Of a stretch of 64,000 nt of DNA, positions 18,751 through 60,900 are shown piece after piece. The notes under the pieces are model-generated. The model saw only the letters and a list, made by a program, of their open reading frames with translations. It searched no databases and was not told where the DNA came from. How positions within the stretch are numbered: position 1 is the first letter of the stretch; every line of letters begins with the position of its first letter. Source of the stretch: Pseudomonas sp. BGr12 (GTDB lineage Bacteria; Pseudomonadota; Gammaproteobacteria; Pseudomonadales; Pseudomonadaceae); NCBI RefSeq assembly GCF_030272895.1, contig NZ_JALRNF010000005.1, positions 1 to 64,000 on the forward strand. Reading direction: 5' to 3'. A program made the translations under genes and the position numbers.

Positions 18751-18818
18751 TAGGAGCGGGCTGGCCCCGCGATTGTGAGCTATCAGCTGCTCGCATCGCG
18801 GGGCCAGCCCGCTCCTAC
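18751..18818. repeat. REP hairpin
   Basis: Paired inverted REP: gtaggagcgggctggccccg and its inverse around a 20-base centre. This copy carries the 'ggctggcc' variant where most others in the window have 'gcttgcc'. Sits after the SnoaL-like gene. Confidence 0.92.
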
Positions 18819-29764: not shown

Positions 29765-31438
29765 ATGACCATGCTCAAAGACCCTTCGAAAAAATACAGT
29801 GCCTTCCCTACCGTCAACTTGCCTGACCGTACCTGGCCGTCGAAGACCATCACCCAGACCCCGATCTGGTGCAGCTCCGACCTGCGCGATGGTAACCAGT
29901 CGCTGATCGAGCCCATGGATGCCGCGAAGAAGCTGCGTTTCTGGAAGACCCTGGTCAGCGTTGGCGTGAAGGAAATCGAAGCCTCGTTCCCGTCGGCCTC
30001 GCAAACCGACTTCGACTTCGTCCGTACCCTGATCGAAGACGGCCACATTCCTGACGACACCACCATCCAGGTGCTGACCCAGGCCCGTGAAGACCTGATC
30101 GCCCGCACCTTCGAATCCCTGCGCGGGGCGAAGAAGGCCATCGTCCACCTGTACAACGCCACCAGCCCGTCGTTCCGCCGCATCGTCTTCAACCAGGACA
30201 AGCAAGGCGTGAAGGACATCGCGGTGAACGCGGCCAAGCTGTTCGTCAAATATGCCGCCCAGCAGCCGGAAACCCAGTGGACCTTCCAGTACTCGCCGGA
30301 GACCTTCAGCGCTACCGAGCTCGAGTTCGCCAAGGAAGTCTGCGACGCGGTGATCGAGGTGTGGAACCCGACCCCGGACAACAAGATCATCCTCAACCTG
30401 CCGGCCACCGTCGAAGTCTCGACGCCGAACATCTACGCCGACCAGATCGAGTGGTTCGGTCGGAACGTCAGCCGCCGCGACAGCGTGATCATCAGCCTGC
30501 ACACCCACAACGACCGTGGCACCGGCGTGGCCGCCACCGAACTGGGCCTGATGGCCGGTGCCGACCGTGTCGAAGGCTGCCTGTTCGGCAACGGCGAGCG
30601 CACCGGCAACGTCGATCTGGTGACCCTGGCCTTGAACCTCTACACCCAGGGCCTGGACCCACAACTGGACTTCTCCGACATCGACGGCGTGCGCAAGGTG
30701 GTCGAAGAGTGCAACCAGATTCCGGTGCACCCACGTCATCCGTATGTCGGCGACCTGGTTCACACCGCGTTCTCCGGCTCGCACCAGGACGCCATCCGCA
30801 AGGGCTTTGCCCAGCAGAAGGACGACGCCAAGTGGGAAGTGCCATACCTGCCGATCGACCCGGCCGACATCGGCCGCAGCTACGAGGCGGTGATCCGCGT
30901 CAACAGCCAGTCGGGCAAAGGCGGCATCACCTACCTGCTCGAGCAGGAATACGGCATCAGCCTGCCACGTCGCATGCAGATCGAGTTCAGCCAGGTGGTG
31001 CAGGGTGAAACCGACCGCCTGGGCCTGGAAATGACCGCCCAGCAGATCTACAGCTTGCTGCACCGCGAGTACTTGCAGGCCAACGCACCTTACGCCCTGG
31101 TCAGCCATCGCCTGCAGGAAGAGAACGGCCACAGTGCGGTGGAAGTCGAAGTGTCCAGCGAAGGCGAAACCACCCTGCACTGGCGCGGCAAGGGCAATGG
31201 CGCCCTGGAAGCCCTGGTGGCCGGCTTGCCGATCGCCGTGGAAATCATGGACTACAACGAGCACGCCATCGGTGCCGGCACCAACGCCAAGGCGGCGGCC
31301 TACATCGAGCTGCGCGTGGCCGGTGGTCGTCCGGTGCATGGTGTAGGTATCGATGAGAACATCACCACCGCCAGCTTCAAGGCATTGTTCAGTGCCCTGA
31401 ACCGTTCGCTGAGCCAGCAGGCGGCCAAGGCTGCGTAA
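29765..31438 (+). CDS. leuA: 2-isopropylmalate synthase
   Basis: LeuA condenses acetyl-CoA with 2-oxoisovalerate, the committed step to leucine. The 557-aa protein is of the longer (LeuA type 2) form found in pseudomonads and actinobacteria. The HMGL-like TIM barrel (about 30-300) has the metal/substrate motif [11 protein letters not shown] near residue 37 and [11 protein letters not shown] near 242; a C-terminal LeuA dimer/regulatory domain (about 420-550) mediates leucine feedback. A strong terminator follows. It stands alone, not beside leuCDB. Confidence 0.97.
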
Positions 31439-31452
31439 GCTGCCTGGCAGAG

Positions 31453-31484
31453 AAAAAGCCCGCCCCGAACAGGCGGGCTTTTTT
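31453..31484 (+). terminator. Rho-independent terminator of leuA
   Basis: aaaaagcccgcc pairs with ggcgggctttttt across a short loop, 15 bases after the leuA stop. Confidence 0.93.
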
Positions 31485-31539
31485 GTGGGTATTGATTTTG
31501 CGCTGATCTTCGCGGGACAAGCCTGCACAGGCAAAAAAA

Positions 31540-31861
31540 GGCTCTTCACGGAATCCCGGAGGGCTAGGCTCCTTGGGCTTGGGTGTCGAGGTGGCGAGCT
31601 TATCCATTCCATGCAGCGACGCTGCCGGCCCCTTCCGCCTTTACGGCGGGTCCCTTTTGTCTTGGCAAAAGGAACCAAAACCGCTCGCTCCTACCATCCG
31701 GCCCTACGCTGCGCTCCGGGTTCCCTCGCTACGGTGTCTTCCAGGGGCTGCGCGGCCTACGACTTGCTGCGCCAAGCCTACGGCTCGCGTTCTTCGGCTA
31801 CGCCGAAGGGTGCTGCGCACCCGCCCCCTCCAGACACCTACGCTCGGCCTTCTGAAGTCGC
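31540..31861 (+). repeat. Hairpin-rich ~322-nt element, copy A
   Basis: First of two inverted copies in the 940-base gap between leuA and eda. It contains consecutive hairpins: GCAGC-gac-GCTGC (about 31613), CCGCC-tttac-GGCGG (31635-31649), an 11-position stem at 31649-31676 with loop TCTTGG, and TTCGGC-tac-GCCGAA (about 31792). Several frames are open through it, but none has a ribosome site and the stem region does not conserve amino acids between copies, so I favour a structured DNA/RNA element over a gene. Confidence 0.85.
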
Positions 31862-31927
31862 GAAGTTACGGGTGGTGCCTGTGCTGGCGCATCTTCGAAG
31901 GCAGATGTTGGCGCAGCCTGGCTGACG

Positions 31928-31955
31928 CCATCGCGGGGCAAGCCCGCTCCTACGG
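31928..31955. repeat. Single REP half-unit
   Basis: catcgcggggcaagcccgct followed by cctac is one arm of the REP hairpin, here without its inverse. It lies in the 137-base spacer between the two element copies. Confidence 0.75.
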
Positions 31956-31998
31956 TTGCTCTTGATCTTCATGCGCGTCAGTTCAGGCGCTGCAGAAT

Positions 31999-32320
31999 GC
32001 GACTTCAGGAGGCCGAGTGGAGGTGCCTGTAGGGGCCGTGCGCAGCACCTTCGGCGTAGCCGAAGAACGCGAGTCGTAGACTTGCGTAGCAAGTCGTAGG
32101 CCGCGTGGCCCCGGAGGGCGCCGGAGCGAGGGGACCCGTAGCGCAGCGGAGGGCCGTATGTAGGAGCAAGCGGTTTTGCCTACTTTTCCCAAGAGAAAAG
32201 TAGGCCGCCGTAAAGGCGGAAGGGGCCGGCAGCGTCGCTGCATGGAATGGATAAGCCCGCAGACTCGACACCCAAGCCCAAGCCCAAGGAACCTAGCTCT
32301 CCGGAATTCCGTGAAGAACC
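31999..32320 (-). repeat. Hairpin-rich ~322-nt element, copy B (inverted)
   Basis: Inverse-orientation copy of 31540-31861, clearly similar over its full length. The third hairpin (32178-32205) has an 11-bp perfect stem and the same loop TCTTGG read on the minus strand, but the stem sequence differs from copy A by paired changes. It also has an extra perfect hairpin GACTTGC-gta-GCAAGTC (32079-32095). It directly abuts the eda terminator. Confidence 0.85.
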
Positions 32321-32349
32321 AAAAAAAAGGGGCGCCGACCAAGCGCCCC
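32321..32349 (-). terminator. Rho-independent terminator of eda operon
   Basis: GGGGCGC (32329-32335) pairs with GCGCCCC (32343-32349); eight A on the plus strand at 32321-32328 form the T tract of the leftward transcript. Confidence 0.94.
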
Positions 32350-32378
32350 ATAAGCCGTGTAGCACACAACGAAAAATG

Positions 32379-33053
32379 TCAGTCCAGCAGTGCCAGCGCC
32401 TCTGCACTGCAGGCTTCGATCCGCGCCCAGTCGCGGTTCTTGATCCAGCCGCTGTCGAGCATCCAGGTACCGCCCACGCACATCACATTGGGCAGGGCCA
32501 TGTAGCTCTTCACATTGCCGGGGTTGACCCCGCCGGTCGGGCAGAAACGGATATCGCCGAAGGGGCCGCCATAGGCCTTGATCGCCGCGACGCCGCCGCT
32601 GATTTCCGCCGGGAACAGCTTGAAGCGGCGGTAGCCCAGGGCATAGCCGCTCATGATCTCCGAGGGCGTGCTGATGCCCGGCAACAGGGGGATGGCGCTT
32701 TCCACACCGGCCTCGAGCAGGTCCTGGGTAATCCCCGGGGTCACCACGAACTGCGCACCCGCAGCCTCGACCGCAGCGAACATCGTGCGATCGAGCACGG
32801 TGCCGGCGCCGACACACAGTTCCGGGCGCTGCTCGCGCAGCACCTGGATGGCCTTGAGGCCATGCGCCGAGCGCAAGGTGACTTCCAGGGTCTTGATGCC
32901 CCCGGCAGCCAGGGCATCGGCCAGTGGCAGGATGTCTTCCTCACGGGCGATGGTGATCACCGGCAGGATGCGCGCCTGGGTACAGATCTGGTCGATCCGG
33001 GCAATTTTGTCGGCCATGGAAGCTCCCGGCTGTTTCAGTTCAAGCGTGGTCAT
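32379..33053 (-). CDS. eda: 2-keto-3-deoxy-6-phosphogluconate (KDPG) aldolase
   Basis: Eda splits KDPG into pyruvate and glyceraldehyde 3-phosphate, the last Entner-Doudoroff step. A 224-aa class I aldolase TIM barrel with the Schiff-base lysine in YRRFKLFPAE, the Glu in LEVTLRS, and CPTGGVNPGNV. The ATG at 33053 (MTTLELKQP) is chosen because AAGGA lies nine bases upstream; an ATG at 33074 overlapping the pgl stop (ATGA) is an alternative. Last gene of the zwf-pgl-eda operon, expected to be under HexR. Confidence 0.97.
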   Translation of the reverse strand: MTTLELKQPGASMADKIARIDQICTQARILPVITIAREEDILPLADALAAGGIKTLEVTLRSAHGLKAIQVLREQRPELCVGAGTVLDRTMFAAVEAAGAQFVVTPGITQDLLEAGVESAIPLLPGISTPSEIMSGYALGYRRFKLFPAEISGGVAAIKAYGGPFGDIRFCPTGGVNPGNVKSYMALPNVMCVGGTWMLDSGWIKNRDWARIEACSAEALALLD

Positions 33054-33070
33054 GACGGCAGTTCCTTGAC

Positions 33071-33784
33071 TCATGGGCACCAGTAAATATCCAGAGGGTC
33101 TTGCACAAAGGCGTAAATCGGCATGTGTTGCGCATCGCCGGTTTCCAGCGCGGCGCGCAGGGTAGCGAGTTTGCCCGCCCCTTGCAGCGATAATGCGGTA
33201 AATCGGGCACGGGCCAGCAGAGCGCGGGTCATGCTCAGGCGCTGGTGCGGCACGCTCGGTGCCAGCATCGGCAGGCAGCGACGGGTGCTGTGCGGGTCCA
33301 GGCCTTCGGCCAGGTTCGGACTGTTGGGGAACAGCGAAGCGGTATGGCCGTCGTCGCCCATGCCCAGCACCAGCACATCGATGCCCGGCAGTTCGGCCAG
33401 GGCCCGGTCGGTTTCCAGGGCGGCAGCTTCCAGGCTGGCGGCAGGACGGTAGAGGCTCAGGAAGCGTGCCTTGGCCACCTCGCCCACCAGCAGATGACGC
33501 TTGAGCAGGCCGGCATTGCTGTCGGCGTGCTCGACCGGCACCCAGCGCTCATCGGCCAGGGTGACCAGCACCTTCGACCAGTCCAGCGCCTGCTTGGCCA
33601 GTACCTCGAAGAATGCCACCGGACTGCGCCCGCCGGACACCACCAGGGTGGCCGTGCCGTTGGCGGCGATGGCCGCGCGCAGGCGTTCGGCGACATCCCG
33701 CGCCAGGCCTTCGGCCTGCTTCGCGGGCTCGGTGAATTGGTGCGCCGTTACCGTTGCCGGCAGTTCAAGTTCAGATATCGCCAT
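33071..33784 (-). CDS. pgl: 6-phosphogluconolactonase
   Basis: Pgl hydrolyses 6-phosphogluconolactone to 6-phosphogluconate in the cytoplasm. The 237-aa protein belongs to the NagB/devB-type family: [17 protein letters not shown] near residue 50, [19 protein letters not shown], and [16 protein letters not shown]. The start at 33784 has GGGAGG seven bases upstream and overlaps the end of zwf by 14 bases. Middle gene of zwf-pgl-eda. Confidence 0.96.
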
Positions 33785-35240
33785 ACCACGACCTCCCATC
33801 ACGGGTAATCAATGCAATCGAGCTCATCGGCCCCCAGGAGCCGGCAGCATAGGGCTTGGGCGCGTCGCCAGCGGTCTTCCAGCCGGCGATCAGCTGATCG
33901 CACCATTTCCACGCGTATTCGATTTCATCCTTGCGCACAAACAGGTTCTGGTTGCCACGCATCACTTCCAGCAGCAGACGCTCGTAGGCATCGGGAATCC
34001 GTGCACTGCGCCAGGTGTCGGAAAAATTCAGCTGCAACGGCCCGCTACGCAACTGCATGCCTTTGTCCAGGCCTTGTTCCTTGGTCATCACCCGCAAGGA
34101 AATACCTTCGTCCGGCTGCAGGCGGATGATCAGCTTGTTACCGATTTGCAAACGCTGTTCCGGGGCGAAGATGTAGTGCGGGGTTTCCTTGAAATGAATG
34201 ACGATCTGCGACAGCTTCTGCGGCATGCGCTTGCCGGTCCGCAGGTAGAACGGCACGCCCGACCAGCGCCAGTTGCGGATATCGGCACGCAGGGCGACGA
34301 AGGTTTCGGTATCGCTCTGGGCGTTGGCGTTGTCTTCTTCCAGGTAACCGGGCACCGAGCGGCCTTCGCTGTAGCCGGCGATGTACTGGCCGCGCACCAC
34401 GCGGGTGCTCAGGCCTTCGCCGGTGATCGGTGCCAGGGCCTTGAGCACCTTGACCTTCTCGTCGCGGATGCTGTCGGCCGAGAGGTCGCTGGGCGGGTCC
34501 ATGGCGATCAGGCACAGCAGCTGCAACAGGTGGTTCTGGATCATGTCGCGCAGCTGCCCGGCCTTGTCGAAGTAGCCCCAGCGGCCTTCGATGCCGACCT
34601 TCTCGGCCACGGTGATCTCCACGTGGGAGATGGAGTTCTGGTTCCATTGGGTTTCGAACAGGCTGTTGGCGAAGCGCAGGGCGATCAGGTTCTGTACCGT
34701 TTCCTTGCCCAGGTAGTGGTCGATGCGGTAGACACGATTTTCCGGGAAGTACTGGGCCACGGCGTCATTGACCCGGCGCGACGACTCCAGGTCATGGCCG
34801 ATGGGCTTCTCCAGCACCACCCGGGTGCGCGCGCTGAGGCCGACCTTGTCGAGGTTCTCGCAGATGCCGCCATAGACCGCCGCCGGCGTGGCGAAGTAGG
34901 CGATCAGCTGGCTGTCGGCGCCGACCTGGGCGGCCAGGGCATGATAGTCATCGAGCTGGAGAAAATCCACATGCAGGTAGGTGAGGCGCGCCAGAAAGCG
35001 CTGCAGGGCAATGGCCTCGACCTCCCCGGCCGGAACGAACTCCTGCAGATGGGCCTCGATCGACCCCAGGTGCTCCTGGGCACTACCCGGCTCGCGGGCC
35101 AGCGCCAGCACCCGGGTTTCGGCATGCAGCAGGCCAGCCCGGTCAAGCTGGTAGAGCGCCGGAAACAGCTTGCGCAGGGCCAGGTCGCCGAGCGCGCCAA
35201 ACAGGGCGAAGGTGCAAGGTTCAACGCTGATCGAAGCCAT
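33771..35240 (-). CDS. zwf: Glucose-6-phosphate 1-dehydrogenase
   Basis: Zwf oxidises glucose 6-phosphate to 6-phosphogluconolactone. The 489-aa length and motifs are standard: nucleotide-binding [20 protein letters not shown] near residue 9 and the substrate/catalytic [13 protein letters not shown] near 180. The start at 35240 ([11 protein letters not shown]) is preferred over the frame from 35285, which runs across the HexR-like operator and the AAGAACAA motif. First gene of the operon, divergent from hexR. Confidence 0.97.
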
Positions 35241-37188: not shown

Positions 37189-37247
37189 GCTCATCGCGGG
37201 GCAAGCCCGCTCCCACCCTGTAGGAGCGGGCTTGCCCCGCGATGAGC
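37189..37247. repeat. REP hairpin
   Basis: Two REP arms (gctcatcgcggggcaagccc and its inverse) around a short ccctg-type centre, between oprB and the mutarotase gene. Confidence 0.93.
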
Positions 37248-45291: not shown

Positions 45292-45363
45292 TGTGGGAGC
45301 GGGCTTGCCCCGCGATTGCAGTGTGTCAGCAAGATCGTATCGCGGGGCAAGCCCGCTCCCACA
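45292..45363. repeat. REP hairpin
   Basis: Perfect REP arms (tgtgggagcgggcttgcccc and inverse) separated by about 24 bases, between gltR and glk. Confidence 0.93.
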
Positions 45364-45373
45364 GCTGCCGCGC

Positions 45374-49432: not shown

Positions 49433-49504
49433 GGTGGGAGCGGGCTTGCCCCGCGATGCGGCCTGGCTGGCAGTAGCCGATCGCGGGGCAAGCCCGCTCC
49501 TACC
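49433..49504. repeat. REP hairpin
   Basis: REP arms (ggtgggagcgggcttgcccc and inverse) around a 24-base centre, just after gap. Confidence 0.93.
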
Positions 49505-49542
49505 GGCAGCTGTTGATTGAACAGAGCTTGACCACAGCGCTG

Positions 49543-60830: not shown

Positions 60831-60900
60831 GTAGGAGCGGGCTTGCCCCGCGATGCGATGTCACTGACAGATCGCATTCGCGGGGCAAGCCCGCTCCCAC
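60831..60900. repeat. REP hairpin inside the arc operon
   Basis: Arms ggtaggagcgggcttgcccc and inverse with a 22-base centre, in the 109-base gap between arcB and arcC. Confidence 0.93.

Follow-up and report, generated by a model that had tools for sequence, protein, structure and literature searches.

A 781-bp non-coding element with structured arms in Pseudomonas sp. BGr12 is very probably a MITE-like branch of a genus-wide structured family

We conclude with considerable confidence that the 781-bp sequence between leuA and eda of Pseudomonas sp. BGr12 is a copy of a non-autonomous, non-coding, MITE-like element, whose structured arms are a branch of a genus-wide structured family and whose movement would depend on a transposase encoded elsewhere. 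It has the hallmarks of a MITE, namely terminal inverted repeats, a target duplication, an empty site in relatives and no coding capacity. Throughout, the window is the whole 64,000-nucleotide stretch of DNA that was analysed (contig NZ_JALRNF010000005.1, positions 1 to 64,000).

The element lies in the gap between leuA (+ strand, ending at 31438) and eda (- strand, with its stop at 32379), gene names that come from an earlier note on this DNA and agree with the window's translations. That note had described two 322-nt copies in opposite orientation filling this gap, and both are there (Table 1): six collinear matching pieces, 82-95% complementary, jointly span the two arms. Its 11-pair hairpin is likewise borne out exactly, with an identical TCTTGG loop and changes at stem positions 2, 3, 4, 5 and 11. 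Beyond the arms, the full unit comprises arm A, a 137-bp spacer and arm B, with inverted ends and flanking A/T repeats of 7-8 bp; the 15-nt terminal inverted repeats (GGYTCTTCACGGAAT) differ between left and right at one position. The window element is not bounded by two inverted REPs, its REP being in the spacer. REPs like this one also occur in the window at 18794, 37192-37244, 45293-45368, 49434-49517, 60831-60855 and 62294, several of them as inverted doublets.

Table 1. The element between leuA and eda and its parts (window positions)
Feature	Positions	Strand	Basis
Arm A (322 nt), outer to inner	31540..31861	+	pairwise match, genome copies
Spacer (137 bp), REP-like palindrome near 31929-31954	31862..31998	.	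83-98.5% identity in alignable pairs
Arm B (322 nt), outer to inner	31999..32320	-	pairwise match, genome copies
Left terminal inverted repeat, GGCTCTTCACGGAAT	31540..31554	+	
Right terminal inverted repeat, GGTTCTTCACGGAAT	32306..32320	-	
Left target duplication, seven A	31533..31539	.	
Right target duplication, eight A (T-run of the eda terminator on the - strand)	32321..32328	.	
eda intrinsic terminator hairpin (the target)	32329..32349	-	
Conserved core, arm A (model R1: adjacent hairpins)	31632..31727	+	
Conserved core, arm B (model R1)	32128..32222	-	
Arm A hairpin, CCGCC-TTTAC-GGCGG	31635..31649	+	
11-pair hairpin, arm A, GGTCCCTTTTG-TCTTGG-CAAAAGGAACC	31649..31676	+	
11-pair hairpin, arm B, GCCTACTTTTC-TCTTGG-GAAAAGTAGGC	32178..32205	-	
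Inner multi-hairpin domain, arm A (where relatives have a TwoAYGGAY-like domain)	31720..31855	+	
Inner multi-hairpin domain, arm B	32005..32135	-	
CATGGAATGGATAA, two ANGGA, centre-outward strand of arm A	31600..31613	-	
CATGGAATGGATAA, centre-outward strand of arm B	32241..32254	+	

Arm A has 31 matches in its own genome, so the pair is not a chance arrangement. The 280-contig assembly contains 11 assembled pairs and 23 fragments cut by contig ends, and the 781-bp element is probably one cause of the assembly breaks. Every one of the 11 assembled pairs has the order A-spacer-B, with L020 and L021 internally truncated. Because this order never varies, the unit is the whole 781 bp; the earlier note was right that the arms are real and drew the unit too small in equating it with the pair of arms. 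In one copy (L014) a run of CTCTTG repeats lies within the spacer. A plasmid search returned no match to the arm pair. Among 46 arms, 14 carry a type A stem and two a variant of it, 21 a type B stem and five a variant of that, and four are cut off; a B-type stem is present en bloc in the A arm of both L016 and L018. The five stem changes between arms A and B are not demonstrably five events, and the arms instead draw on a few whole stem types.

Target duplications were scored in the five pairs with both ends clear, the other six of the 11 having a degraded end. Two are perfect over 8 bp and include a non-run base (ATAAAAAA/ATAAAAAA in L011 and ATTTTTTT/ATTTTTTT in L016), those of the window copy and of L014 agree at seven of eight positions, and L021, in which both ends are present, has no direct repeat. 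In this last copy arm B is incomplete, and a terminator T-run stands at either end. The preferred target is an A/T run: 26 of 35 placed ends adjoin an 8-mer with at least six A or at least six T. The two backgrounds are both below 1%, at 640 of 148201 8-mers across 12 sequences and 12 of 1540 when the flanks themselves are read at a distance of 9-60 nt. At many insertion points the T-run is recognisable as that of an intrinsic terminator, and a strict test, a perfect hairpin adjoining the T-run, was positive at 7 of the 35 ends. The target hit by the window copy is the eda terminator, which in relatives runs straight into downstream sequence.

The corresponding site is empty in the P. putida group, where 80 loci were fetched and all 71 with both ends found have no arm between eda and leuA; the gap is shorter than 320 bp in 41 of these, and in the remaining 30 the genes are separated by something else. 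At this site L254, for example, has ..GGCGCCCCTTTTTTTTGCCTGTGC, and the window ..GGCGCCCCTTTTTTTT, the element and then TTTTTTTGCCTGTGC. A related copy with one end kept (CCGTGAAGAACC) is found in P. reidholzensis (L253), and Pseudomonas sp. UFMG81 (L238), which has no leuA on the contig, has its own related pair just past the same terminator. The right arm of the UFMG81 element runs into an unrelated, insertion-sequence-like stretch (L238:11480-11848), for which an IS3-like label is a guess. Window-type ends are near-absent outside their own lineage: beyond the BGr12 genome, a search of 25 genomes gave five weak matches, each with two mismatches, spread over 4 of the 24 others.

From these ends and duplications, we suggest that the element would be moved in trans by a cut-and-paste (DDE) transposase with an 8-bp target, most like that of the ISL3 family. 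The likeness consists in the 8-bp duplication and ends beginning GGYTCT, a resemblance to the one ISL3 element compared, that of genome G004 (L189), which has ends GGCTCTATTCCG.. and an 8-bp duplication. Among 40 end matches in the 280-contig assembly, many of them running past a contig end, there was no autonomous partner with the same ends. A search of the element's own genome for the ISL3 domain gave one partial match of 38.7 bits, which has no ends of this kind around it, and all 25 genomes contain a comparable partial match. The earlier note's suggestion of a hairpin bound by a transposase-like enzyme gains from the transposon ends and target duplications and loses in that these lie outside the hairpins and that the enzyme was not found. 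Terminator T-runs may be a safe haven for insertion, since after the duplication the terminator still has a T-run on its side of the element.

The evidence that the arms are structured comes from the wider family and not from the two copies in the window. A covariance model of the arm core (R1) was scored on at most 150 candidates per genome, so that its counts are lower bounds. Among the 25 genomes of the genus, 22 have matches, the element's own included, and each of these gives at least 5 to 70. Across 274 genomes of the class it matches in six others, strongly in G196 (another genus of the same family) and at 40-51 bits in five that may or may not be kin. The weak R1-like hairpins of these five, which come from other families of the class (L107-L111 and L113, two of them in G048), have covarying stems of their own and possibly represent a much older hairpin family. 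Within the genus the cores, too, mostly stand in inverted pairs. In two complete genomes, inward pairs make up 15 of 15 close neighbours in G003 and 17 of 18 in G015, where about one would be expected.

Covariation over many copies, which the earlier note had made the touchstone of its structural reading, is present. In the R1 alignment, which was fitted to the structure, 99.0% of cells are paired, compared with 83.5% after shuffling and 42-55% after sliding, and for both R1 and the inner domain described below none of 500 shuffles reaches the paired percentage or the covariation score, though related sequences and a fitted structure inflate this result. Across 93 distinct sequences of the 11-pair hairpin, position 1 is G-C in 68 and C-G in 25, position 2 is T-A in 68 and C-G in 25, and position 4 is C-G in 53, A-T in 39 and T-A in one, with no half-changed pair at any of the three; position 3 is a C.A mismatch in 55, which is U.G on the opposite strand. 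These whole-pair swaps of the same hairpin across related genomes bear out the earlier description of a hairpin-rich structured nucleic acid. The companion claim, that paired changes between copies A and B reveal selection, does not follow from those two copies, as stem types move en bloc.

Taken alone, the window arms fold modestly better than shuffles on both strands (z from -1.6 to -3.5), and the arms of relatives, L068 excepted, reach z from -4.8 to -9.9. Folding energy was rejected as a guide to the strand: in 78 of 79 arms the fold is more stable on the centre-outward strand, but the difference is just as large when 16 arms are dinucleotide-shuffled, which makes it an effect of composition. 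Wobble cells (G.U, A.C) favour one strand or the other according to the helix set chosen.

Better strand evidence than these wobble pairs is provided by the Rfam family TwoAYGGAY (RF01731), which matches the inner arm of relatives on the centre-outward strand. A match above its cut-off occurs in 16 of the 25 genus members, and 14 control genomes yield none; among the matches listed in 14 loci, 11 of 18 reach the cut-off, and among those listed for G003 and G015, seven of seven adjoin an R1 match on the opposite strand. Counts of R1 and RF01731 over the 25 genomes correlate with a Spearman coefficient of 0.82, or of 0.99 only when G000 and G009 are removed by hand. In relatives the inner arm forms a three-way junction. 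In the 55 gapless sequences among 85 extracted inner domains, 95.0% of cells are paired compared with 88.0% after shuffling, 16 pairs are changed on both sides compared with 7.8 in shuffles, and one pair, that of columns 18 and 100, is non-standard in 35 of these sequences on the strand used and G.U on the other. ANGGA stands in two loops 28 nt apart in 55 and 54 of these 55 domains and in neither on the other strand, and among the other 30 domains L082, L009 and L002 keep just one ANGGA. The loop octamer of the relatives' inner domain is CAUGGAUG, and a diverged arm of G007 (L096, near 1438) has a hairpin with GTACAGGGATGT, an exact instance of the CsrA SELEX consensus RUACARGGAUGU. Near an element pair of G003, L125:420-503 matches sRNA-Xcc1 (RF02221) at 67.9 bits.

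These features raise the possibility, to which we give slightly less than an even chance, that the family is a mobile RsmA/CsrA sponge, in which the ancestral arm would give rise to an RNA running from the centre outward, whose two ANGGA loops are predicted to bind an RsmA dimer, the inverted arms would yield one sense copy when transcribed from either side, and the window copies would be descendants with the binding domain replaced. TwoAYGGAY was proposed as CsrA-sequestering by Gardner and Eldai (accessible text of PMC4333381), and the GGA of the octamer CAUGGAUG mediates Rsm repression of cfcR in P. putida in vivo (accessible text of PMC6849547); the confinement of RF01731 to the genus genomes rather than the controls, the near-invariance of the ANGGA loops while their stems covary and the exact SELEX consensus in L096 all point the same way. 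The window-type copies pull in the other direction, since no A or B arm of this type has the RF01731 domain or ANGGA loops: RF01731 has no match in the window at E <= 1, Rfam over 30000-34000 gives sub-threshold matches only, and the copies L011, L012 and L016 give no RF01731 match. The single ANGGA site of L082, L009 and L002, a promoter search of the window element that found none, and a folding-energy strand bias equalled by shuffles also weigh against the sponge. Elsewhere in the BGr12 genome there are seven RF01731 matches at E <= 0.01, and another arm (L068) has the old form at 42.0 bits (cut-off 43); A.GGATA outside the core is kept in 44 of the 46 window-type arms. On balance, we suggest that the arms still fold because they work, or formerly worked, as a structured RNA read centre outward, and that they probably descend from such an RNA, a putative RsmA/CsrA binder whose domain was lost from the window copies.

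The ends that flank the arms appear to differ between lineages. In relatives a GTAG-headed REP stands beside the arm in 63 of 99 distinct outer contexts, compared with 4 of 120 background windows. The main REP type has its heads outward in 55 and reversed in three, and a second, nearly symmetric type has them outward in 24 and reversed in 15; in many relatives, two inverted REPs, the arrangement of a REPIN, are present in full or by half. One REP-bounded element of G003 is missing from the same place in G017, where its flanks stand 15 bp apart. Judging from this anatomy, the arms appear to be carried by REP-type ends in relatives and by ISL3-like ends in the window lineage. Only tentatively, and with real doubt, we put forward the broader picture in which Pseudomonas genomes hold dozens of mobile palindromic copies whose arms are putative RsmA/CsrA sponges, with at least two kinds of ends, and in which copy number tunes the Gac/Rsm system.

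The paired stem changes could also have arisen by mutation without selection, through conversion of one arm by the other or template switching within quasi-palindromes, which swap or perfect whole stems. The B-type stems found en bloc in the A arms of L016 and L018, the small number of whole stem types among the 46 arms and the lack of one-sided changes at three stem positions across 93 sequences are what this would produce. We nevertheless consider it rather unlikely, as the modules of the stem combine freely (the outer pairs GT/AC and CC/GG occur with different fourth pairs), several unlinked helices covary while their loops are kept, and the C.A at position 3, U.G on the other strand, persists in 55 of 93 sequences where correction should have erased it. 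Selection on structure is more likely than conversion alone, because the genus-wide pattern of several covarying helices and invariant loops is hard to obtain from conversion alone.

It is quite improbable that the element serves as a two-way transcription insulator whose hairpins block read-through between convergent genes from both sides. The element does sit at terminators, a tail-to-tail bias is known for P. fluorescens repeats (accessible text of PMC2718517), and the nearest gene, picked by codon score and in some cases distant, points at the element on 30 of 47 sides (18 of 25 left, 12 of 22 right). This orientation bias is modest and explained by the target preference, however, and the terminator of the host site persists while the core hairpins, save for weak scan matches, have no T-run after them. 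That the element encodes a small protein we reject with near certainty, in agreement with the earlier note: frames of 90-146 aa do overlap arm A, but 11 A arms contain 14 one-base gaps, no frame is open in all copies, variable sites by phase (12/24/16 in the A arms, 15/13/15 in 10 B arms) show no third-position excess, three frames have no Pfam match, and one 90-aa frame returned a single homologue at E <= 1e-5, a result that also fails to bear out, for that frame, the recurrence of the family as short hypothetical frames.

The MITE-like reading that we favour places the element beside several known systems, compared here through the accessible portions of the papers cited. With the MITEs ERIC, NEMIS and MITEPsy1/2 it shares a non-coding, multi-copy nature, terminal inverted repeats, a short target duplication and folding into hairpins; it differs in its length of about 780 bp, compared with 70-300 bp (PMC3733652), in its long, symmetric arms of chained hairpins and in its aim at terminator T-runs, and the ends printed for MITEPsy1/2 in PMC3189936 are not its own. 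With ISL3-family insertion sequences, as represented by the element of L189, it shares GGYTCT-starting ends and the 8-bp duplication, whereas it has no internal transposase, its ends diverge past the first bases and its partner was not found. The pair in relatives lies between inverted REPs with heads outward, as in REPs, REPINs and BIMEs (PMC2817692, PMC3733652), whereas in the window the REP is in the spacer, the ends are of DDE type and the length far exceeds that of a REP doublet. The relatives' arms share two hairpins and AYGGAY-like loops with TwoAYGGAY RNA (RF01731, PMC2864571), whereas the window arms do not match it, and the accessible text of PMC2864571 gives no mobile, inverted-pair repeat context.

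Several Pseudomonas repeat families in the accessible literature may be the present family (PMC2267715, PMC2718517, PMC3733652). Ppu-1 of P. putida (617 bp, 39 members) is intergenic and structured (PMC2267715), and P. fluorescens has R178 (101 bp, with an 11-bp internal repeat), R200 (320 bp) and R26 (352 bp) (PMC2718517). Compared by description, their sizes, intergenic place and 11-bp internal repeat fit the arm or core, and the accessible text of the two papers gives no function or end structure for them. A literature search that left subscription papers mostly outside its reach found neither the element nor TwoAYGGAY described as mobile. MITE-like elements, REPs and TwoAYGGAY are known already, and what appears to be undescribed, in the literature so covered, is that TwoAYGGAY in this genus forms the inner half of a mobile repeat that comes in pairs. 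An orphan of Rfam whose function is unknown, together with several Pseudomonas repeats that lack a name, thereby becomes a single testable entity, structured and mobile. Were the arms to bind RsmA, a global regulator would be fed by selfish repeats, and if they act as sponges, the inverted layout would let any read-through yield a sense sponge. Independently of the sponge, transposition aimed at terminator T-runs uses a target that spares host genes.
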